Source of the DNA: a virus | IMG/VR virus record: IMGVR_UViG_3300003690_000100 | Location: 1-32,394 of that record | Direction: 5' to 3' (one strand) | DNA length: 32,394 nt | Part shown: positions 1,990-32,394 of the stretch, in pieces | Layout of the letters: every line of letters begins with the position of its first letter | How positions within the stretch are numbered: the first letter of the stretch is position 1 | Translations under genes and position numbers: made by a program | The notes under the pieces: model-generated | Database searches by the model: none | Told to the model about the DNA's origin: nothing | What the model saw: only the letters and a program-made list of their open reading frames with translations

Positions 1990-3332
1990 TGGCGGAGCAG
2001 ATCATCAGAATCAACTACCGCCCAAGGAAAGCCTTTCGGGAGTTCCATAAACGGACAAAACGATGGGGATGCCTGGTCTGCCATAGACGAGCCGGAAAAA
2101 CCGTGGCCGCAATTAACGATCTTATCCGTGCCGCTATTACGTCGAAATCGCCAAATCCGCAGTTTGCATATATCGCCCCATATCGCTCCCAAGCCAAATC
2201 CGTCTCCTGGGAATACCTCAAGACGTATTCGGCGCCTATCGCTAACGCTACTAATGAAGCAGAATTGCAGATCGACCTGCTTAATGGAGCCCGTATCCGC
2301 CTATTCGGAGCCGATAATGCCGATGCCATACGAGGGCTGGGCTTCGATGGCGTGCTGATGGACGAATATGGCGATTTTCGCCCCTCGGTCTGGGGAAATG
2401 TCATTCGGCCAACCCTATCCGATAGGCAGGGATGGGCCGTCTTTATGGGAACGCCAAAAGGGAAAAATCAGTTCTGGGAGCTGTACGACGCCGCAAAAAG
2501 CCTGCCGAACGAATGGTTCAATATGAAACTCCCCGCGTCTGTCTCTCATATATTGCCCCCTTCTGAAATTGCAGCGGTTAAAGCCCAGCTCACCCAAGAT
2601 CAGTATGAACAAGAATACGAATGCTCTTTCGAGGCGGCTATTCTTGGCGCATTTTTCGGCATAGAAATGCGCGAGGCGGATGAGCAGGGTAGGCTTGCCG
2701 CCGTCCACTCCGACAAGGCTATCCCTGTTCATACCGCTTGGGACTTAGGATTCAAGGACGATACCGCAATATGGTGGTATCAAGTGGTGCGCGGAGAAAT
2801 CCACGTTATCGACTACTATTCCGTCTCTGGCGCTAATATAGAAGACTTGGCTAAAATCGTTACCGATAAGCCGTATTCCTACGGCGTCCATAACTTACCC
2901 CATGATGCCAGAGCTAAAACGCTCGCAGCACAAGGCAAGTCGATAGTCGAACAGCTTGCCTCCTATCTGGGCCTCCAATCCTTGCGCATCGTGCCGCACC
3001 TTTCCGTCCAAGACGGTATTCAGGCAGCTCGCCTTACACTCCCGCATTGCTGGTTCGATGCCATAAAATGTAAGGAAGGAATCGAAGCCCTAAGACAATA
3101 TGAACGCGAATACGACGAAGATACCAAAGCGTTCCGTGCCAGGCCGAAACATAACTGGGCTAGTCATGGCGCCGACGCCTTCCGTATGCTGTCAGTCGCA
3201 TGGCGCGAGGAACCCAGCTCTGAATTTGCCACACCACCAAGCGAAGCAGCCCTCATCGCAGGACCAGAAAATACCGTCACCCTCAACGATCTGTGGGCGG
3301 ATCAAAGACGCCATAGGAGAATTAGGATATGA
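1989..3332 (+). CDS. terL: terminase large subunit (packaging ATPase-nuclease)
   Basis: The motor that pumps DNA into the prohead and cuts the concatemer. The 447-residue protein has a Walker A variant HRRAGKT (residues 32-38), Walker B with catalytic glutamate GVLMDE (121-126), and the coupling motif GTPKGKN (154-160). The C-terminal RNase H-like nuclease shows AWDLGFKDDTAIW (acidic D252), HDA (D306) and GADAFR (D396). All expected catalytic residues are present and the length is typical, so it looks intact. It overlaps terS upstream and the following gene by four bases (3329-3332), consistent with one late transcript. Confidence 0.96.
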   Translation: MAEQIIRINYRPRKAFREFHKRTKRWGCLVCHRRAGKTVAAINDLIRAAITSKSPNPQFAYIAPYRSQAKSVSWEYLKTYSAPIANATNEAELQIDLLNGARIRLFGADNADAIRGLGFDGVLMDEYGDFRPSVWGNVIRPTLSDRQGWAVFMGTPKGKNQFWELYDAAKSLPNEWFNMKLPASVSHILPPSEIAAVKAQLTQDQYEQEYECSFEAAILGAFFGIEMREADEQGRLAAVHSDKAIPVHTAWDLGFKDDTAIWWYQVVRGEIHVIDYYSVSGANIEDLAKIVTDKPYSYGVHNLPHDARAKTLAAQGKSIVEQLASYLGLQSLRIVPHLSVQDGIQAARLTLPHCWFDAIKCKEGIEALRQYEREYDEDTKAFRARPKHNWASHGADAFRMLSVAWREEPSSEFATPPSEAALIAGPENTVTLNDLWADQRRHRRIRI

Positions 3333-16383: not shown

Positions 16384-17790
16384 ATGCCTAATGGATACGA
16401 TTATTCACCTAAATACGATTATTCAAATTTTAACTACGCCGATCCTTATGCCGCTGAGCGCAAGGAGTTAGAGCGTCAACAAGAATTAGCCACCGCTCTG
16501 CGCACGCGATCTAGAGAATCTATCCAGCCGATAAGTGTCGGCGGTTTCCAGGGGCAAATTTCCCCTTTCTCTGGCCTCGCCAGGATGCTCGAATCCTATA
16601 GTGCTGAGAAGACAGGCAGGAAGGCGAGAGAGGATGAGCGGGCCTTGTACAAAAGAATGCGCGACGATGCACTGTACGATAGGGGATTAGCCCTGGAGGC
16701 TACGCGACCCACACGATCTGTCTCCACGGTTACAGACGATCCAATTGACGATCAAGATGTCCCCACACGATCTGTCTCCACGGTTACAGACGATCCAAAT
16801 GGACCGCTAGCTCAGGCGTTAATTCCCCAACTAGAACAGGTAGTGGTTCCCCGTCGCAAGCCTGGTGATCCCACAAATATACCCTCAGATAAGCCATTAT
16901 CCCGGCAACCAGGGGACCCCCTCTTCAAAGAACCTTCCCTTCAAAGCATCTTTCGCTCCGTCCAGCATGTCCCCCAAAACATCTTTCGCTCCGTCCAGCG
17001 CTGGGCGGAACCTACATTTGACGAACTCACCCCAATACAGCAGCAGAGGGAGGATATGAAGGGGCGAGGGCGCGACTCACCATTTTGGGTGCAGCGGGAG
17101 AAAGACTCCGAGGGACGAAAAAGGGAGCGGCAAGGCTCTCCAGACGTTGATTCACTCCCAATGGTTCCGCCAATGGTTCCGCCAATGGTTCCGCCAATGG
17201 TTCCGCCTGACACCCAACAAGCTCTCCCTGTCACCACACAAGCTGCTCCCATGCCGTTTAATCTGGACATGGCAAGCGCCGTACCCGGAGCAGGGGTGAT
17301 GGGTGCCCCACCAGCCATTGAACTACCACCTGTATTGGACCAATACCGTGCGGCCCGTGAAGCGGGAATACTACCCACTGTCCAAGAACCGGACAGACAG
17401 GTACCAGTTGACGAACCATCTCACCCATACGGACGGGATGAAGCCCTGGCTAGAGCTATGTTAAACATGAGGAATCCTACGAAGTTTGGTGAGGGTATGG
17501 AATTATGGAAAGAAACTCAAACTAAAATACAGGAATGGAAGGCAGCGAAGGAACTACAAGACTATAACAGAAAGATAGACGAAAAGAAACTAGAAATACT
17601 GTTGAAGGAGGCTGAAGCGAGGCGACCAGTCGAGAGAGACCCCCCCGCAGATGAAAGGTTTATGCGTTGGTATCGGAGAGCTTATCCAAATAGCACCGAC
17701 GCCGATGCTCTCGAAGCGTGGATAGCGTTCCAGTCGGGGCAGCCGCTTTTCTCTGACACGGACGAAATAATCCAAGTTGATGAGGAATAG
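16384..17790 (+). CDS. hypothetical late protein with several short repeats, 468 aa
   Basis: A 468-residue hydrophilic protein I do not recognise. It starts MPNGYDYSPKYDYSNFNYAD, with a YDYS repeat, and carries an 18-residue (54-bp) repeat with RSVSTVTDDP twice (DNA 16709-16744 and 16763-16798), an 11-residue repeat with IFRSVQ twice, and four copies of MVPP from a 12-bp unit (17161-17208). The C-terminal 150 residues are charged and helical (KETQTKIQEWKAAKELQ...). It lies between two large virion proteins and ends six bases before the next start. A minor virion or ejection role is inferred; the repeats suggest a fast-changing disordered linker. Confidence 0.72.
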   Translation: MPNGYDYSPKYDYSNFNYADPYAAERKELERQQELATALRTRSRESIQPISVGGFQGQISPFSGLARMLESYSAEKTGRKAREDERALYKRMRDDALYDRGLALEATRPTRSVSTVTDDPIDDQDVPTRSVSTVTDDPNGPLAQALIPQLEQVVVPRRKPGDPTNIPSDKPLSRQPGDPLFKEPSLQSIFRSVQHVPQNIFRSVQRWAEPTFDELTPIQQQREDMKGRGRDSPFWVQREKDSEGRKRERQGSPDVDSLPMVPPMVPPMVPPMVPPDTQQALPVTTQAAPMPFNLDMASAVPGAGVMGAPPAIELPPVLDQYRAAREAGILPTVQEPDRQVPVDEPSHPYGRDEALARAMLNMRNPTKFGEGMELWKETQTKIQEWKAAKELQDYNRKIDEKKLEILLKEAEARRPVERDPPADERFMRWYRRAYPNSTDADALEAWIAFQSGQPLFSDTDEIIQVDEE

Positions 17791-17795
17791 AGTCG

Positions 17796-20700
17796 TTGCC
17801 TCAATTTGACGTAAAAGTTGGTGATCGTACCTTCAGGGTTAGCGCCGATAACCAACGAGATGCGTGGGATAGGGCCCAGGTTTTGGCGCGCAAGACTACC
17901 TCGTCGGGGGCCTTTTTGCGCGGCGCGGTGGGCTCCCTTCTACCGGCTACTGCCGGTTTTACCGGCGCGGTTCGTGGCGCGGCTTTGGGTTCTCGTGTGG
18001 GGATGTTAGCTGGGCCATACGGTGTCGCAGCGGGCGGCGTATTGGGCGCACTCGCCGGGGGGTTGGGCGGAGGATATGGCGCCGATGTAGCTCAGAGATG
18101 GGCCTTGAAAAAAGCCCCGCGCGTTCGCGGGATTTTGGGTCAAAGCCCAGAGCAACGCCAAGCGGATGTAACACAACACCCCTATGCGTCCACCGCTGGA
18201 ACTTTTGCTCCTTTGGCGCTCACTCTCAGCCCGCGCGCTCCTGGTAAGGCGTTTGTCAATGCGGTCAGAGGAGAGAAAGCTTCGGGTTTAGCGCAAGCCC
18301 TTTCCAGGGGGAAAGTATGGCGCGGCGTTGGCGCCGCCTTTGGCGGGGGTGGTGAAGCTCTCAGACAGCGTTCGGTAGGAGAAGACTTTGATCTGGGGCG
18401 CATTGGGGTGGCGGCAGGCGCCGGAGCTTTGCTTCAGAGCCCGACACGGTTTGGGAGGCGGTTAGGTGGCCCAGGGATGCCTCAACCAAGTTCCGCTACG
18501 GTTGCAAGCCAGACGGCAGACCGCGCTGAGACGATCCGCCAAAATCGGGCATATACCCCATATACCCCGAGGAGACCACCGCCAGCACCACCGTCGAAAA
18601 AAGGCGAGTTTCGCCATATTCGTCCATCAGCACGCCTACGGCGTCGGGGTTTAGACGAACAGGCGTCCCCAGGGACGTTTCGGGCGCGTCAGGCCGGACG
18701 ACTCGCAACGGACTTCGCAAGAATTTTCGATGATGTTAGTGCGAAAGGATATATATTTTCTAGGAAACCCGGGGAGCTCGGGAAGCGGTTGACCCTTGAG
18801 GATATTAGGGCTTTAGCCGCCGACGTTAGAATAACAGAAGAGCAGCTAAGGAACATACAGCCAGGTACCCCACTTACTGCCGTAGAAGCTACTGCGATCC
18901 GCAATGGCTTTAGTGAAGCAGGTGCGGCTGTGGGTTCTACAGCTAAACAACTAAATGCGCTCCTTGTAAGTGGGCGCCCCATACCTGATGAACAAATGTC
19001 GCAATTCATGAATTTAGTTCATCGGAATACTCTGTTCCAAAGTGTATTGGCGGGTGATAAGACTGCGTGGGGAATTTCGGGACGCGCCATGCAAATGACC
19101 GTGCAAGGTGAAAACCAAGCCATAGCCATCCAAAGAATGATTGCGTCCCATGGTGGGCAAGAGAATATCCAAGACCTTGTTACCAAGATAGCCGCGCTAG
19201 ATACGCCACAAGCTGTTAATCAGTTTCTACAAAGCGCACTAAAGGCGACCAGCGGAGATATGGTGCTGGAGGGGTGGATAAACGCCCTTCTGTCCGGCCC
19301 CCAAACACACCTCGTCAATGCCATTTCCAATACCTTAACGGCGGCACTATCCGCACCTGAAACCCTCGGTGCGGCAATCTTTTCTAGAATAGCGGGACGT
19401 CGGGGGGAGAAGGGAGTCTATTTAGGGGAGGCCCAGGCTAGACTTTATGGCATGATTGGAAGCCTTCGACGTGGCGGGAGCACGGCCCTTAAAACGCTTA
19501 AGACTGGAATGCCAAGTGACTGGGCGATCAAGACCGAGGGGGTGGGTTTCCAGAGAATACCCGGCGCGGCGGGACGGTTTGCTAGAATACCTACACGCCT
19601 TCTTATGGCGAGCGATGATTTTTTTAAGACTATTAACTATGGAGGTGAATTACGTGTGCAGGCTTTTAGGGCCGCTTTGAAGAAAGGGTTGCAACCCCGC
19701 AATAACGACTTTGCGCAGTTCCTAGCGGAATTTGAAGCAAATCCACTACTGCATCCAGAAGCGCATCAGGCCGCAACAGAGGCGGCAAGGTATCAGACGT
19801 TCACCAACCCGCTAACGAGCGAATTTGCGCAGTCGCTTCAGCGATTTATCAATAAACGCGAACGGAATCTTTTAGGTATAAAAGGTCCGTGGGTGAAGAT
19901 GTTAGTACCGTTTTTTCGGACGCCAGCGAACATTGTTAAGTACGCCATCGAAAGAACGCCATTGGCCATTTTGGGCACTAAAATGCGGAAGGACTTGCTT
20001 GGTGGTAACGGCCCTCGCGCCGCCGACTTCGCCCGCGCCCGCATGACGATGGGAAGCATGATAGGTGGCGCGGTTATGACTTACGCCCTAGATGGGACCA
20101 TTACAGGGGGTGGTCCTACCGATGTTGGGGAAAGGAACGTCAAGCTCGCAAGTGGATGGCAACCCTACAGCATAAAGATAGGTGATGCATACTATTCTTA
20201 CGCGCGCGTTGAACCGCTTGCCATTATATTCGGTCTCGCGGCAGATACGGCGGAATCCGAAGGCTTCGGCCTTTTTAGTGACGAGGAATCAGAGAGCTTC
20301 GCCAGCCTTTTTAGCGCTGCCATTTCTAAAAACTTGACGAGCAAAACGTGGCTACGCGGCATTACATCCGCGCTTGACGCCCTGTCAGACCCGGATCGTT
20401 ATGGTTCCTCATTTATTAACCAGTTAGTAGGAAGCGCGGTCCCGACTGGTGTGGCCCAATTCGGCAGAGCGCAAGACCCAGTTCTTCGTGATGTTGGGAA
20501 TTGGAGGGAAGCCATCCAGAGTCGTATCCCCTTCCTGTCTAAAGGAGTGGAGCCACGCCGAGACATCTATGGTGAGCCTATAGAGCTGGAAGGTGGCGCC
20601 GGTATCCCGATTCCTGGACTTCGCGGCATAACATCCGCCATAAGCCCATTTTACAAATCGACAATTTCCGAAGACGTGGTACGCAAAGAGGTTGGACGGC

Positions 20701-20981
20701 TGGGAATGCGCACCCGCACGCCGCAGCGCTCGATAAGTGGCGTGGAGCTGACGAAGGCTGAGTCTGACCAATATGAGGCTATTTCTGGGAGACTGGCGCA
20801 TCGCCAGCTAACTCAGTTCATGTCATCTTCTCAATGGGAGCGTATACCGGATTATAACAAACAAGACCTAATACAAAAGGCATTTTCTAGAGCGCGGAAC
20901 ACCGCGAGAAAGTATCTCATTTCTCAGAACCGCCAACTAAGAACGCGCATTATGTTTTCAAATCGCCCTAATCGTGGGTAG
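17796..20981 (+). CDS. very large internal virion/ejection protein, TTG start
   Basis: The largest gene, 1061 residues, starts at TTG 17796 with GAGGAA eight bases upstream; it begins (M)PQFDVKVGDRTFRVSADNQR. Residues about 40-100 are a hydrophobic glycine-zipper region (GMLAGPYGVAAGGVLGALAGG), which could insert in membranes during DNA ejection. A LLSGPQTHLVNAISNTL segment near residue 497 is a pattern I know from large phage internal virion or polyvalent proteins. The remainder is helical and basic, with no lysozyme or protease motif. By position and size it most probably belongs to the DNA-ejection apparatus of the short tail. Confidence 0.78.
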   Translation: MPQFDVKVGDRTFRVSADNQRDAWDRAQVLARKTTSSGAFLRGAVGSLLPATAGFTGAVRGAALGSRVGMLAGPYGVAAGGVLGALAGGLGGGYGADVAQRWALKKAPRVRGILGQSPEQRQADVTQHPYASTAGTFAPLALTLSPRAPGKAFVNAVRGEKASGLAQALSRGKVWRGVGAAFGGGGEALRQRSVGEDFDLGRIGVAAGAGALLQSPTRFGRRLGGPGMPQPSSATVASQTADRAETIRQNRAYTPYTPRRPPPAPPSKKGEFRHIRPSARLRRRGLDEQASPGTFRARQAGRLATDFARIFDDVSAKGYIFSRKPGELGKRLTLEDIRALAADVRITEEQLRNIQPGTPLTAVEATAIRNGFSEAGAAVGSTAKQLNALLVSGRPIPDEQMSQFMNLVHRNTLFQSVLAGDKTAWGISGRAMQMTVQGENQAIAIQRMIASHGGQENIQDLVTKIAALDTPQAVNQFLQSALKATSGDMVLEGWINALLSGPQTHLVNAISNTLTAALSAPETLGAAIFSRIAGRRGEKGVYLGEAQARLYGMIGSLRRGGSTALKTLKTGMPSDWAIKTEGVGFQRIPGAAGRFARIPTRLLMASDDFFKTINYGGELRVQAFRAALKKGLQPRNNDFAQFLAEFEANPLLHPEAHQAATEAARYQTFTNPLTSEFAQSLQRFINKRERNLLGIKGPWVKMLVPFFRTPANIVKYAIERTPLAILGTKMRKDLLGGNGPRAADFARARMTMGSMIGGAVMTYALDGTITGGGPTDVGERNVKLASGWQPYSIKIGDAYYSYARVEPLAIIFGLAADTAESEGFGLFSDEESESFASLFSAAISKNLTSKTWLRGITSALDALSDPDRYGSSFINQLVGSAVPTGVAQFGRAQDPVLRDVGNWREAIQSRIPFLSKGVEPRRDIYGEPIELEGGAGIPIPGLRGITSAISPFYKSTISEDVVRKEVGRLGMRTRTPQRSISGVELTKAESDQYEAISGRLAHRQLTQFMSSSQWERIPDYNKQDLIQKAFSRARNTARKYLISQNRQLRTRIMFSNRPNRG

Positions 20982-21025: not shown

Positions 21026-21613
21026 ATGAGTTTTAACGGATCAGGCACTTTCCAGATCAATACAGCAGGGCAGCCTGTTGTCACGGGAACGGTTATAAGT
21101 TCCTCTGATTTCAATTTGCTCACCGCTGATATTGGGACGGGTCTTTCCACGGCCATTTGTAAGGACGGCCAGACGACGGTAACGGCAAATATCCCCATGG
21201 GCACAAATAAGATCACGGGTCTTGCCGTTGCTACATCTTCAGGCGATGCACTGAGTTTTGCCCAAGCCGCCGAAGTGACGACGCTCACCGTATCCGGCGC
21301 TCTTACCTATGGTGGTGTAACGCTCACCGCAGCGGTAACTGGGACGGGCAAGATGGTGCTAGACACAAGCGCCTCGTTAGTCACGCCGCTGCTTGGAACG
21401 CCCACTAGTGGAACGCTTACGAACTGCACGGGCCTCCCGATAAGCACGGGCGTTAGCGGCCTTGGGTCCAATGTCGCCACATTCCTGGCCACGCCATCCA
21501 GCTCAAATCTGGCACTTCGCCACAAGTCCGACGCTAGTTACTCCAGTGCTCGGAACCCCCTCCAGTGGGACACTTACAAGCTGCACGGGTCTCCCAATCA
21601 GCACGGGCGTTAG
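21026..21613 (+). CDS. tail fibre, N-terminal part (frame broken at 21514)
   Basis: The frame starts MSFNGSGTFQINTAGQPVVT, a typical N-terminus of phage tail fibres, followed by DGQTTVTANIPMGTNKITGL and then the collagen-like repeated LGTPTSGTLTNCTGLPISTG pattern. The fibre reading is good to SSSNLA at about residue 163 (21514). There a 38-bp loss relative to the intact repeat shifts the frame, and the last 30 residues (LRHKSDASYSS...) are out-of-frame reading. The N-terminus would anchor the fibre to the short tail. An AAAAGGA ribosome binding site precedes the ATG. The continuation is found in two other frames downstream. Confidence 0.85.
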   Translation: MSFNGSGTFQINTAGQPVVTGTVISSSDFNLLTADIGTGLSTAICKDGQTTVTANIPMGTNKITGLAVATSSGDALSFAQAAEVTTLTVSGALTYGGVTLTAAVTGTGKMVLDTSASLVTPLLGTPTSGTLTNCTGLPISTGVSGLGSNVATFLATPSSSNLALRHKSDASYSSARNPLQWDTYKLHGSPNQHGR

Positions 21614-21974
21614 CGGCCTTGGGTCCAATGTTGCGACCTTTCTAGCTACCCCATCCAGCTCAAATCTGGCAGCAGCGGTTTCAGACGAAACTGGGTCTGG
21701 AAACTTATGCTTCGCCACAAGTCCGACGCTAGTTACTCCAGTCTTGGGGACACCCTCCAGTGGAACGCTTACGAGCTGCACGGGCCTCCCGATAAGCACG
21801 GGCGTTAGCGGCCTTGGGTCCAATGTCGCCACATTCCTGGCCACGCCATCCAGCTCAAATCTGGCACAGTGGGACACTTACAAGCTGCACGGGGCTCCCT
21901 ATAAGCACTGGAGTAACCGGGTTAGGGTCCAATGTCGCCACATTCCTGGCCACACCGTCATCGGCTAATCTTCG
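21449..21974 (+). repeat. 195-bp tail fibre repeat array with two truncated units
   Basis: Four units start at 21449, 21606, 21801 and 21910, each opening with GGCGTTAGCGGCCTTGGGTC or a variant. The spacing is 157, 195 and 109 bp. The 195-bp interval is an intact 65-codon unit; the others lack exactly 38 and 86 bp. Both losses begin after the same bases, CAGCTCAAATCTGGCA (ending at 21514 and 21866), and neither is a multiple of three. Confidence 0.9.
21515..21968 (+). pseudogene. tail fibre, middle fragment in a second frame
   Basis: From about 21515 the fibre repeat continues in the frame of 21462-21968: FATSPTLVTPVLGTPSSG, TLTSCTGLPISTGVSGLGS, NVATFLATPSSSNLAAAVSD and again through to SSSNLA at 21866. 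There an 86-bp loss relative to the 195-bp unit shifts the frame once more and the reading ends at 21968. No independent start or ribosome binding site is seen, so this is a stranded middle piece of one gene unless the sequence has errors. Confidence 0.7.
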
Positions 21975-23016
21975 ATCCGCTCTAACAGATGAGACAGGTT
22001 CGGGTGCTTGCGTATTCGCCGGTTCCCCCACACTAACTGGCACTGTCTCCGCAGCCGCGCTTTCAACTTCGGGAAGCGCCCAGATCGGTGATGCTGTGAC
22101 AGATACACTAGCGGTTGGCGCTGCCCCGCCCACGACAGCCTCGTACTCACAGTCGTTCTTCGGCGGTAATGCAATTGCCCTCTCGGATAGTGGCTCGTGG
22201 ACTTCCTTCGGAGCTAATTGGTACTACAATTCAGGGGCGTTCCGATATAGGCATGACGGTGCAGCTTCACGCTGCAGTTGGGGATCCGATGCCACAGGCA
22301 ATTTTGAAATAGACGTTTCCGTTTCGGGTTCTGAAGACGGAGCAATTTCATGGCTTCGGTGTTTGACAATAGACGTGGACCGCGTTGTACATTTCAACGG
22401 GATAGGTACTACGGCAAGCGGCGCGAACGCATTTCTCGACTCTGGGGATACGGAATCCCTGCTTCGCAGCACGTCATCGCTTCGGTACAAAAAGGATGTG
22501 GAAGCAATCGAGAAGCCATACATCGACAACATCATGCTTCTCAATCCAATTTGGTATCGCTCGCTATCACCAGCCGACAATCCACTATTTTCCTGGTTTG
22601 GGCTGGCCGCAGAAGATGTATTCAAGATCGAGCCGAGGCTAGTCCATTACACCAGGGACGTTACTGGTACAGAGGATTACGAGGAAGACGCTATCCGAGA
22701 GGTTACGATTGACCAAGAATTCGAGTCCATTGTTGAACGTGAAGGCAAGCTGATTCTCACGAAACAGATACGTCAAGTTTCTGTTATGGAGGATAAACCC
22801 ATCTGGAATGAGGATGGCTCCCCTCTCATGGTCAGTGAATCCGTCCAGGCTGTTAAAAAGGTAGCCCGTACAGAGACTTACAAAAAGAGTAAGCAGCGTC
22901 CAGTCTATAGTGAGCTAAAGCCGGACGGGATTATGTATGATCGCCTCGCGGTTTTGCTGCTTGGAAAAGTCAAGGAACAAGAGGCTCGCATTAGAGCCCT
23001 TGAGAGTGGTTCGTAA
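21814..23016 (+). CDS. tail fibre, C-terminal part with S74 intramolecular chaperone
   Basis: In the third frame the true fibre reading begins after 21866 (SGTLTSCTGLPISTGVTG), followed by a receptor-region-like beta segment and, from about 22450, a peptidase S74 (endosialidase-type) chaperone domain: STSSLRYKKDVEAIEKPYID near 22465-22525 with the serine/lysine self-cleavage residues, NPIWYRS, WFGLAAEDV and YDRLAVLLLGKVKEQEARI. These domains trimerise the fibre and cut themselves off. The annotated start at 21814 is only the first available codon. The chaperone end is intact, so the break lies only in the repeat shaft. Confidence 0.85.
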   Translation: MGPMSPHSWPRHPAQIWHSGTLTSCTGLPISTGVTGLGSNVATFLATPSSANLRSALTDETGSGACVFAGSPTLTGTVSAAALSTSGSAQIGDAVTDTLAVGAAPPTTASYSQSFFGGNAIALSDSGSWTSFGANWYYNSGAFRYRHDGAASRCSWGSDATGNFEIDVSVSGSEDGAISWLRCLTIDVDRVVHFNGIGTTASGANAFLDSGDTESLLRSTSSLRYKKDVEAIEKPYIDNIMLLNPIWYRSLSPADNPLFSWFGLAAEDVFKIEPRLVHYTRDVTGTEDYEEDAIREVTIDQEFESIVEREGKLILTKQIRQVSVMEDKPIWNEDGSPLMVSESVQAVKKVARTETYKKSKQRPVYSELKPDGIMYDRLAVLLLGKVKEQEARIRALESGS

Positions 23017-24416: not shown

Positions 24417-24775
24417 AGGTATCAATTTTAAGTGTCGGGGCAGTCGCCGCAGCACTTCTCGCTGTCGTTGGTATCATTGGGGTGCTGCGACCTTATTTAG
24501 CGAGTGAGCCCGCGCCTTGGGTCTCCACCAGAACAGTCGCACAGTTACAACAACAAACCCTAGATACGTTCCGTGCCTTCCAATCGGGCTATCAGCAAAG
24601 CGCTGCGAGCTGGTGCGAGTTCTATCGCACGCAATATGCGCTTGAAGAGGCGAAGGTGGCTGCAAATCAACAAAACGCTGATGCAATTGGAAAGCGAGAC
24701 TGGAACGCGGCGCAGCGAGATTTATGGTGCGCCCAACAATTGGCCGCGCCAGTGCGTGGGAGCCTAGACCCGTAG
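24413..24775 (+). CDS. putative spanin-like protein, N-terminal membrane anchor
   Basis: A 120-residue protein with an N-terminal hydrophobic segment (residues 4-25, LSVGAVAAALLAVVGIIGVL) and a mostly helical periplasmic-type remainder with Q/A-rich heptads (RTVAQLQQQTLDTFRAFQSG). An inner-membrane spanin (Rz) has this topology and place, after holin and endolysin. No overlapping outer-membrane lipoprotein (Rz1) frame with a lipobox was found, so the spanin call is tentative. It overlaps the previous gene by ATGA and its end overlaps the opposing nuclease gene by 12 bp. Confidence 0.6.
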   Translation: MKVSILSVGAVAAALLAVVGIIGVLRPYLASEPAPWVSTRTVAQLQQQTLDTFRAFQSGYQQSAASWCEFYRTQYALEEAKVAANQQNADAIGKRDWNAAQRDLWCAQQLAAPVRGSLDP

Positions 24776-25135
24776 CGGAATATCCCAGGAGCGCAGCGCG
24801 TCTAGCGCTTCGTCCAGAGTTCGGACGGTTTCAACCAGCACGCCAGCACCTAGTAGACGTGCGTGCATCGCACGCTGCGCCTTCGATACGCGACCTACTT
24901 TCGTTTTTAATTCCATCGCTCGCGTGCATGAGCGGTAGAAAAACAATAGATCAGGTACACCAGGCTCTAACCCGGAAGCCTTCAATATCTTGCCGCGAAT
25001 AACTCCGCCACCCCCTGCCGGAAAGGCAACCATTACACAGTCGCCCGGCAGTATCTTACGCAGATCACGGACTAGAGCGCTTTGGAAGTGCTGTTCTAGG
25101 TGGGAGCGTTTTTTCTTAAATATACGAGTAGTCAT
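24764..25135 (-). CDS. VRR-NUC domain nuclease
   Basis: A 123-residue PD-(D/E)xK-type nuclease of the VRR-NUC family. It shows GVPDLLFF (D62), AMELKTKVGRVSKAQ (E75, K77, Q87) in the order and spacing of this family, preceded by a glycine-rich AGGGGVIRGK segment. VRR-NUC domains are structure-specific or Holliday-junction-type nucleases in phages and in Fan1. It is the last gene of the leftward operon; its ATG overlaps the methyltransferase stop (ATGA), and its end overlaps the opposing lysis gene by 12 bp. A role in recombination intermediates alongside the exonuclease and ERF protein is inferred. Confidence 0.88.
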   Translation of the reverse strand: MTTRIFKKKRSHLEQHFQSALVRDLRKILPGDCVMVAFPAGGGGVIRGKILKASGLEPGVPDLLFFYRSCTRAMELKTKVGRVSKAQRAMHARLLGAGVLVETVRTLDEALDALRSWDIPLRV

Positions 25136-25737
25136 GCTGCGACCTCGCCAAACTTCTCTGTATCATTTCCCCAAGATGTCCAACCTTGGCGCGTATTGCG
25201 CGCAAATAATTCCAGGTATGGTCCAGCGACGAGCCTCTCTATGCGGCCATAAATGCAATCTGGCTTGCGGGAGTGCTGGCGGCGGGGTTCTATGATTCCT
25301 TGGCGGACGGCGGCGCTTCGGCGCTTGGGTTTGCCGCGCGCGGCGAGCAGACAGACCTCGCTGTTAGATCGCGTCCAGTAGCCGCTGCCGATAAGAGCTT
25401 TCGTATCTTCCTGAAAAAACTCTAACTGCTTTGCGTTGGCTTTCATCCATGAAAACGCGCACGTTTTGTAAGTAAATCCCCAGGCGGCAATAACAGATAA
25501 TGCGCGTTGAAGCGTGGGCCATGTGACCCACATAATCAGTACACAGTCCTTGTTGGCGAGAGATTCAACCGGCAGCGCGGTGAGCGCGTCGGTGTCCATT
25601 GTGCGGTAGTGTCGTCTAACATCTGTATTCGCTTTTTCTTGTGTGCCCCAGGTATCGAAAGCCCAAGGCGGATCAGCATAGATCGCACCGAAATGGTGAT
25701 GCGGTATGTCACCAAACGGCCAACTCAGGCACCTCAT
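25132..25737 (-). CDS. MT-A70-type DNA N6-adenine methyltransferase
   Basis: The 201-residue enzyme carries AIYADPPWAF with the catalytic DPPW (residues 22-25), GYWTRSNSEVCLLAARG (119-135), HSRKPD (155-160) and GPYLELFARNTRQGWTSWGN (172-191), all hallmarks of phage MT-A70 adenine methyltransferases. It should methylate adenine in phage or host DNA at an unknown site. The ATG at 25737 is chosen because it overlaps the upstream stop (TAATG); a longer in-frame extension to 25923 lies inside the upstream gene. Methylation may protect DNA or mark promoters. A 46-bp piece of this gene recurs inverted at 27565-27610. Confidence 0.92.
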   Translation of the reverse strand: MRCLSWPFGDIPHHHFGAIYADPPWAFDTWGTQEKANTDVRRHYRTMDTDALTALPVESLANKDCVLIMWVTWPTLQRALSVIAAWGFTYKTCAFSWMKANAKQLEFFQEDTKALIGSGYWTRSNSEVCLLAARGKPKRRSAAVRQGIIEPRRQHSRKPDCIYGRIERLVAGPYLELFARNTRQGWTSWGNDTEKFGEVAA

Positions 25738-26391: not shown

Positions 26392-26673
26392 ATGGCACTA
26401 ACTAAAAAGCAAAAAGTCGAGCGCGAAGGCAAGCTTACGGCAAGCCGTGTTGGCATTTTGATGGGCGGCAGCAGCGAAAAGATACTCAGATTGTGGTCGC
26501 AAATGATCGGCCAAATCGAAGAAGATGACTTGTCTAATGTATGGCCCGTCCAGCTAGGAGGCGCTACGGAATCGCTAAATTTGAATTGGTATGAACGCAC
26601 CACTGGCCACAAGCTCACCCGGCGCGGCGAGGTTGTCGTAATGAAAAAAAAAATTGGGCAGCGGCAACATTAG
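26392..26673 (+). CDS. YqaJ/lambda-type exonuclease, N-terminal part (frameshift at A10)
   Basis: The first 87 residues read KLTASRVGILMGGSS (14-28), then QLGGATESLNLNWYERTTGH (54-73), the start of a YqaJ/lambda-exonuclease fold (E60 in GGATES). At 26644-26653 a run of ten A residues follows ATG; the frame then ends after IGQRQH. A -1 shift there gives N-W-A-A-A-T-L-D-G-F and joins the second part, producing a 269-residue enzyme of normal length. The GGAGGC ribosome binding site supports the start. The enzyme would resect double-stranded ends for the ERF annealing protein. Confidence 0.85.
   Translation: MALTKKQKVEREGKLTASRVGILMGGSSEKILRLWSQMIGQIEEDDLSNVWPVQLGGATESLNLNWYERTTGHKLTRRGEVVVMKKKIGQRQH
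26644..26653 (+). other. A10 slippery run inside the exonuclease gene
   Basis: Ten consecutive A bases follow ATG at 26641. The conserved protein reading passes from frame ATG-AAA-AAA-AAA to AAT-TGG, a -1 shift, or equivalently one additional A. Runs of nine or more A are known sites of RNA polymerase slippage and A-rich heptamers of ribosomal frameshifting; a sequencing homopolymer error would look the same. Confidence 0.75.
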
Positions 26674-26687
26674 ACGGATTTGATGAT

Positions 26688-27200
26688 ATGGAGGGCGGCC
26701 CAGTTGATGCAAAACATGTGGGCGGATATGAGACTATTGAAACGATAGTGGACAGATACACTCCACAAATGCACTGGCAGATGATTGTTACTGACTCTAC
26801 CTGGTCAGCACTTTCAATTGTCGAGGGAGCGCGTGAGCCCGTCGTGCATGAAGTTCTGTATGACTCAGATTATGGCACTGAGCTGTGGACGAGGGCAGAG
26901 GCTTTTATGCAATGCGTCGAAGCACTGACGCCACCTGTCATTCTTCCTCCAGTTCAAGCGCCGATTCCACAATCAAAATGGCAGACCGTGGACATGGTAG
27001 GCAATAATGCTTGGGCCTCACACGCCACCGACTGGCTTGAAAATAGAGATGAGGCAAAACTATTCGCCACAGCGACAAAGGAATTGAAATCACTGATCGA
27101 GGAGGATGTCGGTCTCGCTTTTGGGAGCGGCGTCAAGATCAAGCGCAACAAGGCAGGGCATTTGTCTATAACCAAATCCAGAGGAGAAGCAAATGAGTAA
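26688..27200 (+). CDS. YqaJ/lambda-type exonuclease, C-terminal part
   Basis: The frame is open from 26652 and reads WAAATLDGFDDMEGGPVDAK (split TLDGF, then VDAKHV), where LDG and DAK take the place of the catalytic D and E-x-K of this family, followed by YTPQMHWQMIVTDSTWSALS, the substrate-binding helix and strand. The ATG at 26688 lies inside the nuclease core and has no ribosome binding site, so independent translation is unlikely. The C-terminal 90 residues continue into a charged tail (KSRGEANE). It overlaps the next gene by eight bases. It is functional only if joined to the N-terminal part. Confidence 0.85.
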   Translation: MEGGPVDAKHVGGYETIETIVDRYTPQMHWQMIVTDSTWSALSIVEGAREPVVHEVLYDSDYGTELWTRAEAFMQCVEALTPPVILPPVQAPIPQSKWQTVDMVGNNAWASHATDWLENRDEAKLFATATKELKSLIEEDVGLAFGSGVKIKRNKAGHLSITKSRGEANE

Positions 27201-27651
27201 AGTTTCAAAACTTCATGAAGTTCCAGACGGGTCTAAGCTCCCACGCAGCACAATAGATTTGGTAGTTGACGCCATAGATAACGCTGAAAAATGCAGAATT
27301 GCGTGGTTTAACCAACTCGAAATCCGAAGGGAATTCGGGCTCGGGCAAGCCAGAGTCACGAGGTTGGAGGATGCCACCAAATTACTCCAAAGTTTGAGAC
27401 GTTCGATATACGATGATTGTTGCGGCAATAAATACGGACTCTACCTGATAGATTTGGTAGTTGACGCCATAGATAACGCTGAAAAAGAGGATGCCACCAA
27501 AATCGTCTTACTCCAAAGTTTGAGACGTCAGATAGCCGAATTGCGTGGTTTAATAGCAGAATTGCAAGGACTGTGTACTGATTATCTGGGTAACGTGGCC
27601 CACGCTTCAAGTGGTTTAACCAACTCGAAATCCGAAGGGGAAGCGCAATGA
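27193..27651 (+). CDS. mosaic repeat protein between exonuclease and ERF genes
   Basis: A 152-residue protein not matching a family I know. IDLVVDAIDNAEK appears twice (residues about 21-33 and 86-98), LLQSLRR twice, and IAELRGLIAELQG forms a two-heptad coiled coil near residue 115. DNA repeats explain this: an exact 39-bp block recurs 195 bp apart, and other blocks recur in shuffled order and in different frames. A 46-bp segment matches the methyltransferase gene in inverted orientation. The start has a GAGGAGAA ribosome binding site. The reading frame is intact, so it may be expressed, but it could also be a decayed or newly assembled gene. Confidence 0.6.
   Translation: MSKVSKLHEVPDGSKLPRSTIDLVVDAIDNAEKCRIAWFNQLEIRREFGLGQARVTRLEDATKLLQSLRRSIYDDCCGNKYGLYLIDLVVDAIDNAEKEDATKIVLLQSLRRQIAELRGLIAELQGLCTDYLGNVAHASSGLTNSKSEGEAQ
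27253..27639 (+). repeat. shuffled direct repeats within the mosaic gene
   Basis: Block A (39 bp, starting ATAGATTTGGTAGTTGACGC) is identical at 27253-27291 and 27448-27486. Block B (GAGGATGCCACCAAA...TTTGAGACGT) is at 27367-27403 and 27487-27529 with a 6-bp indel. Block C (29 bp, GTGGTTTAACCAACTCGAAA...) is at 27303-27331 and 27611-27639 in different frames. Block D (GAATTGCGTGGTTTA) is at 27296-27310 and 27538-27552. D and C overlap at GTGGTTTA in the first copy but are 58 bp apart in the second. Confidence 0.9.
27565..27610. repeat. 46-bp inverted copy of a methyltransferase gene segment
   Basis: The 46 bases starting CAAGGACTGTGTACTGATTA equal the reverse complement of 25507-25552 at 43 of 46 positions. 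In the methyltransferase this segment encodes the KDCVLIMWVTWPTLQ region; here it is read in another frame. The two copies are about 2.0 kb apart and inverted, flanking the early promoter region. Confidence 0.9.
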
Positions 27652-28412
27652 TTAGATCACCAGAGATTGCCGGATTGGCGGCTGCCTTAGCAAAGGCCCA
27701 AGGTGAAATGGAGTTCGCAGTCGAGAACAAAGAGAACCCATTTTACAAATCGACATATGCAGACTTGGCATCAGTGTGGAAGGCTATGCGAGCCCCGCTC
27801 TCGAAGCACGGTCTATCGGTCCTTCAACTACCCGAAGCGGACGAGAGTGGTAACATCCGAGTGTCCACACTTTTGATGCACTCATCCGGCCAATTCATCG
27901 AAGCATCATACACACTCAAACCGACAAAAAATGATCCGCAGGGATACGGATCGTCGATTAGTTACATGAAAAGGTATGCACTCACCGGGCTTGGCGTTGC
28001 GCCGTTAGATGCGCCGCTAGACGACGACGGCAATGCTGCATCAGTTAAAACCAACCGTCCGGTTCGGGAGAGCGATAAACCGAAACATAGTGTAGTGATG
28101 GCGCCCACAAAAAAAGCTGAAATTCTCAAACTGCCAGCCGCGGACCCCAAGGCGGCAGGTGCGCCTCGGGAACTCCCAAGTCCGCAGCAAATTAGTGATG
28201 AGGCAGGTGACGATTCCAAAGTGGGGTATTCTTGGAGGCCATGGGGCCAGCTACTCATTTCTAAATTCAAAAATAATGGGGACAAGGACCTGACGGATTG
28301 GCTTGCGTTTAACGAGACCAATCTTACAAAGCTCAAAAAAGAAGACCCGCGAATCCATGGGGCAGTTATGAAAGCTTATGAGCAATATAGTTTGCCCCGC
28401 GCCCATGAGTGA
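27648..28412 (+). CDS. erf: ERF-family single-strand annealing protein
   Basis: A 254-residue recombinase. Family signatures are KENPFYKSTYADLASVWKAM (28-47), PLSKHGLSVLQ (50-60), YGSSISYMKRYALTGLGVAP (100-119) and PLDDDGNA (123-130). ERF proteins (P22 Erf type) anneal complementary single strands and work with an exonuclease in phage recombination and genome circularisation; here the exonuclease lies one gene upstream. The C-terminal part (about 200-250, YSWRPWGQLLISKFK) is a separate helical domain. The ATG overlaps the preceding stop (ATGATTAG region) and has GGGGAAGC as ribosome binding site. Confidence 0.92.
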   Translation: MIRSPEIAGLAAALAKAQGEMEFAVENKENPFYKSTYADLASVWKAMRAPLSKHGLSVLQLPEADESGNIRVSTLLMHSSGQFIEASYTLKPTKNDPQGYGSSISYMKRYALTGLGVAPLDAPLDDDGNAASVKTNRPVRESDKPKHSVVMAPTKKAEILKLPAADPKAAGAPRELPSPQQISDEAGDDSKVGYSWRPWGQLLISKFKNNGDKDLTDWLAFNETNLTKLKKEDPRIHGAVMKAYEQYSLPRAHE

Positions 28413-28839
28413 GTTTTTTGTCCAGCGCGGGCGTGATGGTTTAATGCCATTCTCTGCTGAAGACTCAGCCCAAATCGCCAAACTGGCGTATGGAAAGCCG
28501 ATCAAGATTAAGGCTACGGTGCCCCGAAATGGCCGGTTCCTTGCGTTGTATTGGGTTCTTTGCGCGCGCGTGGCGGATGCACTTGGGATTTCGCCAGAGG
28601 TGGTGAGTGACTTGATTAAGGTCGCAACGGGACATTGCACTGTCGTCAAAACAAAAACAAAGGGAGTGCAGTATTTCCCAAGATCAATTAGCTTTGCGAA
28701 AATGAAGGATGAAGATAGCTTCCGCGATTTTTTTGACCGGGCGATCTGTGTAATTTGTAACGAGTGGGGCATGGAGCGTACCGATGTCCTTGCCGCAGTT
28801 GAGGATATATTGGTGCCCACGGAACTGCGTGGTAGGTGA
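28405..28839 (+). CDS. DUF1367-like protein, NinB-type neighbourhood
   Basis: A 144-residue protein with GLMPFSAEDSAQIAKLAYGK (split at residues 12-31), PRNGRFLALYWVLC and RSISFAKMKDEDSFRDFFDR (96-115), then a WGMERTDVLAAVEDIL helix. The RNxxF...ALY and SISFAKMxxxxFxxFxDRxxxVI patterns resemble DUF1367 proteins, a family found in the recombination and replication regions of lambdoid and related phages with no established activity. The ATG at 28405 overlaps the ERF stop by eight bases; an upstream ATG at 28378 is possible. The stop is followed at once by gcrA. Confidence 0.72.
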   Translation: MSEFFVQRGRDGLMPFSAEDSAQIAKLAYGKPIKIKATVPRNGRFLALYWVLCARVADALGISPEVVSDLIKVATGHCTVVKTKTKGVQYFPRSISFAKMKDEDSFRDFFDRAICVICNEWGMERTDVLAAVEDILVPTELRGR

Positions 28840-28840
28840 T

Positions 28841-29359
28841 GTGAAGTGCAACGCAAATCCTGTTTGGACACCTAGGAGGATGGAACTCCTACGGAAATTG
28901 TGGCGGCAGGGCTGGACCGCGCGGGCTATCGCTAGCCAGCTTGGAGTGGTTTCACGCAACGCAGTGCTTGGAAAGGCGCATCGTTTGGGCCTTCAGTTGA
29001 GGACCCATGCTGACCATGGGCGATGGGCTGGGGAGTCTGCGCGTCCAGCGGCACAATCTCCTGCGCCTAAACCACCTCCTGCGCCTAAACCACCTCCTGC
29101 GCCTAAACCACCTCCTGCGCCCGAACCACTTCCTGCGCCCGAACCACTTCCTGCGCCCGAAACGTCCCCTTTAACGCTCGTTCGGACGGTGGACCTTGCA
29201 GAGCATCACTGTAAATGGCCGACTGGCCACGTTCAAGAACTGGGCTTTGGGCACTGCGGGGCGCCACGTCTCGCGGGGAAACCTTATTGCGAGGAGCATG
29301 ACAGAAAAGCGCATAATCGTGGAGTCAAGCCCATGGTGATTCAAGATTTTGTCAGGTAA
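28841..29359 (+). CDS. gcrA: GcrA-family transcription regulator with proline-rich linker, GTG start
   Basis: A 172-residue GcrA homologue. The N-terminal DNA-binding domain reads VWTPRRMELLRKLWRQGWTA (8-27), then IASQLG and SRNAVLGKAHRLGL (38-51). The C-terminal RNA polymerase-sigma70-binding part shows CKWPTG, HCGAPRLAGKPYCEEH (about 121-157). In Caulobacter GcrA recruits sigma70 at promoters with methylated GANTC sites. Here the linker is expanded by a PAPKPP/PAPEPL repeat. GTG 28841 is chosen because it directly follows the upstream stop with AGGTGA before it and because the conserved domain starts eight residues in; the frame extends to 28784 inside the previous gene. Presence of gcrA points to an alphaproteobacterial host. 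Confidence 0.9.
   Translation: MKCNANPVWTPRRMELLRKLWRQGWTARAIASQLGVVSRNAVLGKAHRLGLQLRTHADHGRWAGESARPAAQSPAPKPPPAPKPPPAPKPPPAPEPLPAPEPLPAPETSPLTLVRTVDLAEHHCKWPTGHVQELGFGHCGAPRLAGKPYCEEHDRKAHNRGVKPMVIQDFVR
29060..29161 (+). repeat. 18-bp tandem repeat encoding the gcrA proline linker
   Basis: Units of 18 bp: CCTGCGCCTAAACCACCT three times, CCTGCGCCCGAACCACTT twice, then a partial CCTGCGCCCGAA. They encode PAPKPP three times and PAPEPL twice, so length can vary without loss of frame. Confidence 0.9.
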
Positions 29360-31413: not shown

Positions 31414-32052
31414 TCAATCACTGCTATGCCTCTCTGTGGCGTCCACAGGGACGTTTGTGGCGCGGGCAACCATAACGTCTAAATCATGCTGCACCACTCG
31501 GCACAGGTGCTTTCTGTGTGCTCGACAGAGATTTGCCAATTCGGGCCACACTCCTGGCGGGATGTGCACCTTCTCGCCCGCCCAGCGCTGGACGGAGCGC
31601 AGGCTTACATCGAGGGCGCGCGCCAGCGGTCCGTGCCAGCCAGCGCCAAATATCGCGCGGCCAGCCTGCCGTATAACGCGTTCACCGCGCACTCTCACAT
31701 AGGGCTCTATACTTATTTGCCTAACGATTTTGAGTTCTGAAGTGGCGCAAATTAGATCGGCGCCCTTCGACCATTTTTTAACCAGGGGTTTATAATCGTA
31801 ATGGCCCTCGGCATCGAAAGGTGCCACGGCGGCCCCCACGCTGGAAATTTCTAGTGATTTAGCATGGCAAATGGTGGAGAGGGCTTTCAGAACGTCCGAC
31901 ATACCAATGTCATCAGACATGATTTCGAGCGCAGTCACCTGAGCAGGGGTGAGCCATGCGCCTGATTTAGCATGATCTTCTGTCAGTTTGCGCACAATTT
32001 CTAAAGAGCGCTCTACGATGCCGTAAGCATTGCCGCGATATGATTTTGTCAT
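31414..32052 (-). CDS. putative DNA-binding regulator, 212 aa, C-terminal HTH
   Basis: A 212-residue soluble protein. The C-terminal part has WHGPLARALDVSLRSVQRWA (139-158), then GEKVHIPPGVWPELANLC (159-176), a helix-turn-helix of the type LxxALxVSxRxVQRWxxGxxxIPxGVW known from small phage and rhizobial regulators. The N-terminal 110 residues are not recognised. A strong AAGGAGG ribosome binding site precedes ATG 32052, which overlaps the preceding stop (ATGA). It may control the leftward cluster or the late genes; no peptidase domain like that of CI is present. Confidence 0.72.
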   Translation of the reverse strand: MTKSYRGNAYGIVERSLEIVRKLTEDHAKSGAWLTPAQVTALEIMSDDIGMSDVLKALSTICHAKSLEISSVGAAVAPFDAEGHYDYKPLVKKWSKGADLICATSELKIVRQISIEPYVRVRGERVIRQAGRAIFGAGWHGPLARALDVSLRSVQRWAGEKVHIPPGVWPELANLCRAHRKHLCRVVQHDLDVMVARATNVPVDATERHSSD

Positions 32053-32270
32053 TTTCTCGGCCTCCTTTGCCGCTTATTCAATTTCTTGAATGCTTCCAAC
32101 AGCTCGTCTCGCTCGACCATCAGCTCGTCTCGCTCGACCATCAGCTCGTTCACTTTATTGAATGCTTCAAAATGCTGAGAGGTTATAGCGTCCTTTAAGC
32201 CTTCAGCGTATGATTTTGTCATTTTCTCGGCCTCCTTTGCCGCGTATTCAATTTCTTGAATGCTTCCAAA
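32041..32270 (-). repeat. tandem duplication in the leftward operon
   Basis: A block of about 59 bp starting TGATTTTGTCATTTTCTCGG (plus strand) occurs at 32041 and 32211 with one mismatch; each carries a ribosome binding site (AAGGAGG) and an MTKSY start. Next to it, a 21-bp unit CAGCTCGTCTCGCTCGACCA(T) is tandemly repeated at 32099-32140 and again near 32346-32381, encoding ELMVERD heptads. Confidence 0.9.
32049..32222 (-). CDS. small heptad-repeat protein, 57 aa (duplicate gene copy)
   Basis: A 57-residue protein starting MTKSYAEGLKDAITSQHFEA with ELMVERD heptads repeated and a basic end (KKLNKRQRRPRK). ATG 32222 is chosen because it has AAGGAGG upstream and overlaps the stop of the upstream gene (ATGA); the frame is open to 32318 but that extension lies inside the upstream gene. 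It shares its C-terminus with the upstream gene and its first five residues with the 212-aa gene downstream, so it appears to be a tandem-duplication product. Coiled-coil oligomerisation is likely; function unknown. Confidence 0.6.
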   Translation of the reverse strand: MTKSYAEGLKDAITSQHFEAFNKVNELMVERDELMVERDELLEAFKKLNKRQRRPRK

Positions 32271-32394
32271 TGCTGAGAGGTTATAGCGTGCTTTAAGCCT
32301 TCGGCGAGAGAATCCCAACGGGCCGCAACACTTGTGAACCGCTCCCGTCGCTCGACCATCAGCTCGTCTCGCTCGACCATCAGCGCGTTCAACA
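32219..32394 (-). CDS. small heptad-repeat protein, 3' part (gene begins at position 19 if circular)
   Basis: The minus-strand frame from 32392 reads LNALMVERDELMVERRERFT, then SVAARWDSLAEGLKHAITSQ and HLEAFKKLNTRQRRPRK, stopping at 32219-32221 with an ATGA overlap to the next gene. Residues EGLKHAITSQHLEAF and KKLNTRQRRPRK are near copies of the 57-aa gene. Across the window ends it joins in frame with MTMDVK at 19-1 to give 64 residues. It is a probable coiled-coil protein of the leftward operon. Confidence 0.65.
   Translation of the reverse strand, partial: LNALMVERDELMVERRERFTSVAARWDSLAEGLKHAITSQHLEAFKKLNTRQRRPRK

Follow-up and report, generated by a model that had tools for sequence, protein, structure and literature searches.

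A 46-bp inverted match between a phage methyltransferase gene and an orphan gene is probably the product of a templated insertion

We analyzed a virus record of 32,394 nt (IMG/VR record IMGVR_UViG_3300003690_000100), the whole of which is referred to here as the window. The present study concerned a region in which a DNA methyltransferase gene on the minus strand is separated by a divergent intergenic region from three overlapping genes on the plus strand. Its genes and features are as follows.

25132-25737, minus strand: MT-A70-type DNA methyltransferase gene (PHROG 359, E=4e-75; Pfam MT-A70, E=1e-27)
25507-25552, minus strand: native segment within the methyltransferase gene, carrying the motif KDCVLIMWVTWPTLQ and matching the donor allele
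26392-27200, plus strand: RecE-like exonuclease gene (PHROG 434 on both halves), in two frames split at an A10 run (26644-26653)
27193-27651, plus strand: recipient orphan gene (152 aa), with heptad-like repeats IAELRGL/IAELQGL
27292-27486, plus strand: in-frame 195-nt patchwork duplication in the recipient, with copies of 27253-27291, of the 3' end of the gene and of 27487-27528
27293-27331, plus strand: putative empty-site copy, GCAGAATTGC+GTGGTTTAACCAACTCGAAATCCGAAGGG, a 39-mer equal to both insert flanks joined (27556-27565 and 27611-27639)
27566-27610, plus strand: probable 45-nt templated insertion, a reverse-complement copy of the methyltransferase segment, with the C at 27565 as shared microhomology
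27648-28412, plus strand: Erf-type single-strand annealing protein gene (Pfam ERF, E=1.6e-19; PHROG 2324)

The recipient open reading frame starts inside the end of the exonuclease gene and ends on the start codon of the Erf-type gene. An initial annotation of this DNA had credited the phage with an exonuclease and an ERF protein, and the profile matches bear this out; NinB/Orf-like proteins were also matched by profile. Searches for relatives of the recipient returned none in phage records (protein and DNA), plasmid records (DNA), PHROGs or Pfam, and none among viral contigs by exact DNA pattern. Viral loci with ERF carried no small upstream gene resembling it. No relative of the exonuclease was confirmed among viral contigs, and none of ERF among genome contigs. 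The A10 run in the exonuclease gene is the only homopolymer of at least 8 nt in the window, and may represent a sequencing error, decay or a slippery frameshift site.

Most relatives of the methyltransferase are homologous from about residue 70 of the longest open reading frame, and the probable start is near 25737. A frameshift in this gene was considered and rejected, since the internal start at 25737 explains the pattern. Downstream of the region, a GcrA-like protein (28784-29359; Pfam GcrA, E=2e-31) contains an 18-nt tandem repeat at 29053-29160, and the presence of this protein suggests an alphaproteobacterial host. An imperfect direct repeat cluster (66, 60 and 55 nt) lies at 32039-32391, near the end of the window. 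In the tail fibre region, 3-4 overlapping direct repeats occupy 21330-22004 with spacings of 157, 195 and 109 nt and are 70-99% alike; of these spacings, 157 and 109 nt are not divisible by three, and the reading frame of the fibre is fragmented across 21026-23016.

Direct alignment of 27565-27610 (plus strand) with the reverse complement of 25507-25552 showed that 43 of the 46 bases are equal. The longest exact run is 21 nt, the match ends sharply on both sides, and alignment revealed no similarity in the 60 nt on either side. This pair is the top-ranked inverted repeat in the window, and a self-BLAST of the window gave it an E value of 2.8e-13. Second-order simulations of the window yielded no inverted exact match longer than 16 nt. 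Similarly, in 300 shuffles that retained all protein sequences and gene-by-gene codon usage, no inverted match longer than 18 nt arose at a separation of more than 1 kb, against observed runs of 21, 22 and 26 nt. The match is far beyond chance. The 46-bp inverted copy reported in the initial annotation was accordingly recovered, as was its placement of the two arms about 2 kb apart (2.0 kb between the copies). A second inverted match near the start of the recipient (27227-27247, equal to 24753-24773 in the VRR-NUC region at 20 of 21 positions) is of borderline significance.

The insertion is most reasonably counted as 45 nt (27566-27610), because the C at 27565 is common to donor and target. 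The left junction thus shares one C, and the right junction shares no base. The segment immediately downstream, 27611-27639, recurs at 27303-27331, where it is preceded by GCAGAATTGC, which is also the exact left flank (27556-27565) of the insert. Relative to 27293-27331, the 3' part of the recipient has 45 extra bases and has lost no target base. Since relatives of the recipient were not found, the uninterrupted site is not a phylogenetic one; the pre-insertion state would be represented by this internal paralogous segment, which lies beside the 7-residue repeat. One observation counts against an insertion: the copy opens with CAAGGACTG, which happens to extend the heptad (IAELQGL) as well.

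The 195-nt patchwork also holds pieces of 35 and 34 nt, for which no source was found. Within the recipient, 27253-27291 recurs at 27448-27486, and 27487-27528 resembles 27367-27402. The duplicated pieces inside the gene are perfectly identical. Both changes keep the frame, the insert adding 15 codons and the patchwork 65, and the overlapping exonuclease-linker-ERF arrangement would presumably favour frame-keeping changes. The copy had initially been described as out of frame and not kept for its protein sequence. The first part holds with respect to the methyltransferase frame, from which the copy is offset by one base. However, the reading frame of the recipient is exactly preserved.

On the evidence of conservation, the copy at 25507-25552 is the native one because the KDCVLIMWVTWPTLQ stretch is conserved in about 60 related loci. 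In the methyltransferase sense, the three mismatches between the resident gene and the copy are G/C, C/A and A/G (codons ATG/ATC, GTC/GTA and ACA/ACG). All three fall at codon position 3 of the methyltransferase frame, for which the chance is about 1 in 27. Two are silent and the third is an M/I difference, a variation that many relatives also show. In the recipient frame, the same mismatches fall at codon position 1, and each would alter a residue there. The nearest relatives carry ATG and ACA, as does the resident gene; therefore, the copy at 27566-27610 probably carries derived states. The codon-position pattern, these probable derived states and the perfect identity of the duplicated recipient pieces lead us to favour a donor different from the resident. 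The template was probably a methyltransferase allele slightly different from the resident, for example, from the phage's own lineage or from a co-infecting relative. Alternatively, error-prone synthesis during the event may have introduced the three mismatches. The copied segment, used as an exact pattern, had no match in viral and genome contigs.

These mismatches obey the codon constraints of a methyltransferase, as those of a paralogue would, and the adjoining exonuclease gene is also interrupted. Both observations would speak for a second methyltransferase gene that once occupied 27565-27610 and decayed to a remnant. However, no trace of similarity is left outside the 46 nt, whose two edges are abrupt; the recipient gene is open and overlaps both neighbouring genes; and 27293-27331 has the flanks joined without the insert. 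We regard gene decay as quite unlikely.

The initial annotation proposed that the two arms might recombine and invert a switch region. An invertible switch of this kind, in which the 46-bp arms flip the early control region, has in its favour the inverted orientation of arms that lie 2.0 kb apart and the annealing recombinases of the phage. However, owing to the one-base frame difference, inversion would create out-of-frame fusions between the two genes and would detach the DPPW half of the methyltransferase; moreover, the arms differ at 3 positions. Since recombination between the arms would shift the frame of both the methyltransferase and the recipient and split the former, a useful switch is extremely unlikely, and we do not retain the proposal. 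The annotation also described the copies as flanking both early promoters. They loosely flank the divergent intergenic region, but a scan of that region limited to sigma-70-type sites showed no promoter-like site.

Selection for a regulatory or antisense element, such as a portable antisense promoter or a pairing RNA, appears highly improbable. Both copies contain a 9/12 promoter-like match (TTGAAG-18-CATAAT/GATAAT) antisense to each gene. However, such matches are no more frequent than chance predicts (2 found, 3.0 expected), and the mismatches track coding constraint rather than pairing. The methyltransferase is encoded on the minus strand and the inverted copy lies on the plus strand, so the two mRNAs have the same sense and cannot pair. 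The antisense pairing suggested earlier is therefore excluded by geometry.

Several features of the record would suit a chimera produced by assembly or amplification of a metagenomic contig. The sequence is an IMG/VR-type virus record, repeat-rich patchwork surrounds the site and is also seen in the tail fibre region, the exonuclease gene has the A10 frameshift, and no second independent sequence was found. However, a typical read is longer than the insert, and no more than 1 nt is shared at the insert junctions; k-mer misjoining should not create such an insert, because assembly misjoins need shared k-mers at the junctions and none are present. Furthermore, the 3 mismatches between the copies follow a methyltransferase-like pattern, the frame is kept by both the 45-nt and the 195-nt changes, and comparison with relatives reveals no clear frameshift in the genes of the first 13.5 kb. 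We consider an artefact unlikely, although a library chimera is conceivable.

The 46-bp copy is thus probably a templated insertion, made by template switching or fragment capture. Its most likely origin is not a genetic switch but an accident of copying while phage DNA was being replicated or recombined. The initial annotation had mentioned a template-switch scar among its possibilities, and this suggestion gains support from the clean in-frame 45-nt insertion, the empty-site copy in the same gene and the other inverted snippets described below. We infer a polymerase or annealing mechanism, which may have proceeded as follows. During phage DNA replication or recombination-dependent repair, a strand being extended in the 3' part of the linker gene, or a short single-stranded fragment there, would have switched, via the single shared C, to the methyltransferase gene in the opposite orientation. 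There, 45 nt would have been copied, probably from the slightly different allele, before a return to the exact base that had been left, with no loss of target sequence. The insertion may have survived because its 15 codons are free of stops, which would have kept the overlapping exonuclease-linker-ERF operon in frame. Against this reading, the 2-kb distance between donor and target exceeds that of classical quasipalindrome template switching, and the one-base microhomology is as compatible with the capture of a fragment as with a switch of polymerase.

Two further pairs of exact inverted matches lie far apart in the window.

2349-2374, plus strand: 26-nt segment of the terminase gene (GVLMDEYGD), with its inverted repeat at 18611-18636
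18611-18636, plus strand: inverted 26-nt exact copy of the terminase segment, in an internal virion protein gene (17796-20981)
16987-17008, plus strand: 22-nt exact inverted repeat partner of 31578-31599, in a structural-region gene (16384-17790)
31578-31599, minus strand: probable native 22-nt copy (RSVQRWA), in the HTH-like region of the open reading frame 31414-32052

The direction of copying in the 26-nt and 22-nt pairs would follow from which copy sits in a conserved motif. Searches for homologues covering the copy sites in the two target genes found none, and for this reason the pairs do not discriminate between insertion and replacement. A 19-nt direct match, 27737-27755 with 20645-20663, was not counted with them, as codon-preserving shuffles occasionally yield such matches; it places the conserved ERF motif PFYKST in the internal virion protein as well, in the same frame, and is borderline.

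Among 22 control records (787 kb) of related or ERF-bearing phages, no far inverted repeat was detected at E<=1e-4. The nearest was a self-palindrome (1.7e-4), and the only other was a single 19-nt match (E=0.007). No far inverted repeat was found at E<=1e-4 in 155 other loci, many of them short, or at 1e-3 in 80 further loci. We speculate, with considerable reserve, that a recurrent process, perhaps tied to RecE/Erf, pastes short inverted pieces of conserved genes (methyltransferase, terminase and the HTH gene) into fast-evolving genes and supplies new in-frame protein sequence; such a process is possible, but doubtful. The excess of dispersed inverted snippets makes repeated occurrence in some phages with annealing recombinases testable. 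In a single phage genome, the insert occurs together with the donor gene and with a putative copy of the site as it was before interruption, which would provide a clear example of new coding sequence arising by short templated copying.

Several known systems offer comparisons. In diversity-generating retroelements, a short template is also copied directionally into a variable gene. However, the changes in these elements are adenine-specific, and the G/C, C/A and A/G differences in the present case are not, which argues against such an element; no reverse transcriptase was found among the genes annotated in this analysis. Lambda Red proteins can recombine homologous sequences even when these have diverged, and have been proposed as drivers of phage mosaicism (PMC2327257). 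Relaxed mosaicism of this type resembles the present case in that phage recombinases accept diverged substrates and make mosaic genes. However, Red-type events occur between homologous diverged sequences, whereas here the junctions share no more than one base of homology and the copy is inverted. According to the account in PMC8604942, the idea of two-hop template switching first arose in bacteriophages (Ripley 1982) and templated mutagenesis was described in phage T4 (Schultz and Drake). In the template-switch mutations covered by that account, as here, an inverted template is copied with an exact return to the original template. These mutations correct a pre-existing imperfect repeat, whereas the present event is a 45-nt non-homologous insertion with its template 2 kb away or on another molecule. 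In yeast, breaks are documented to acquire short templated insertions in inverted orientation, and insertions templated by distant loci are documented as well (PMC11724301). These are likewise short, templated elsewhere, often inverted and associated with microhomology, and are sometimes accompanied by other rearrangements. However, they are eukaryotic and involve Pol delta and end joining, whereas the present insertion is in a phage with RecE/Erf-type proteins and is fixed in frame within a gene. By analogy, the present case appears to work like template-switch mutations and the templated insertions of yeast.
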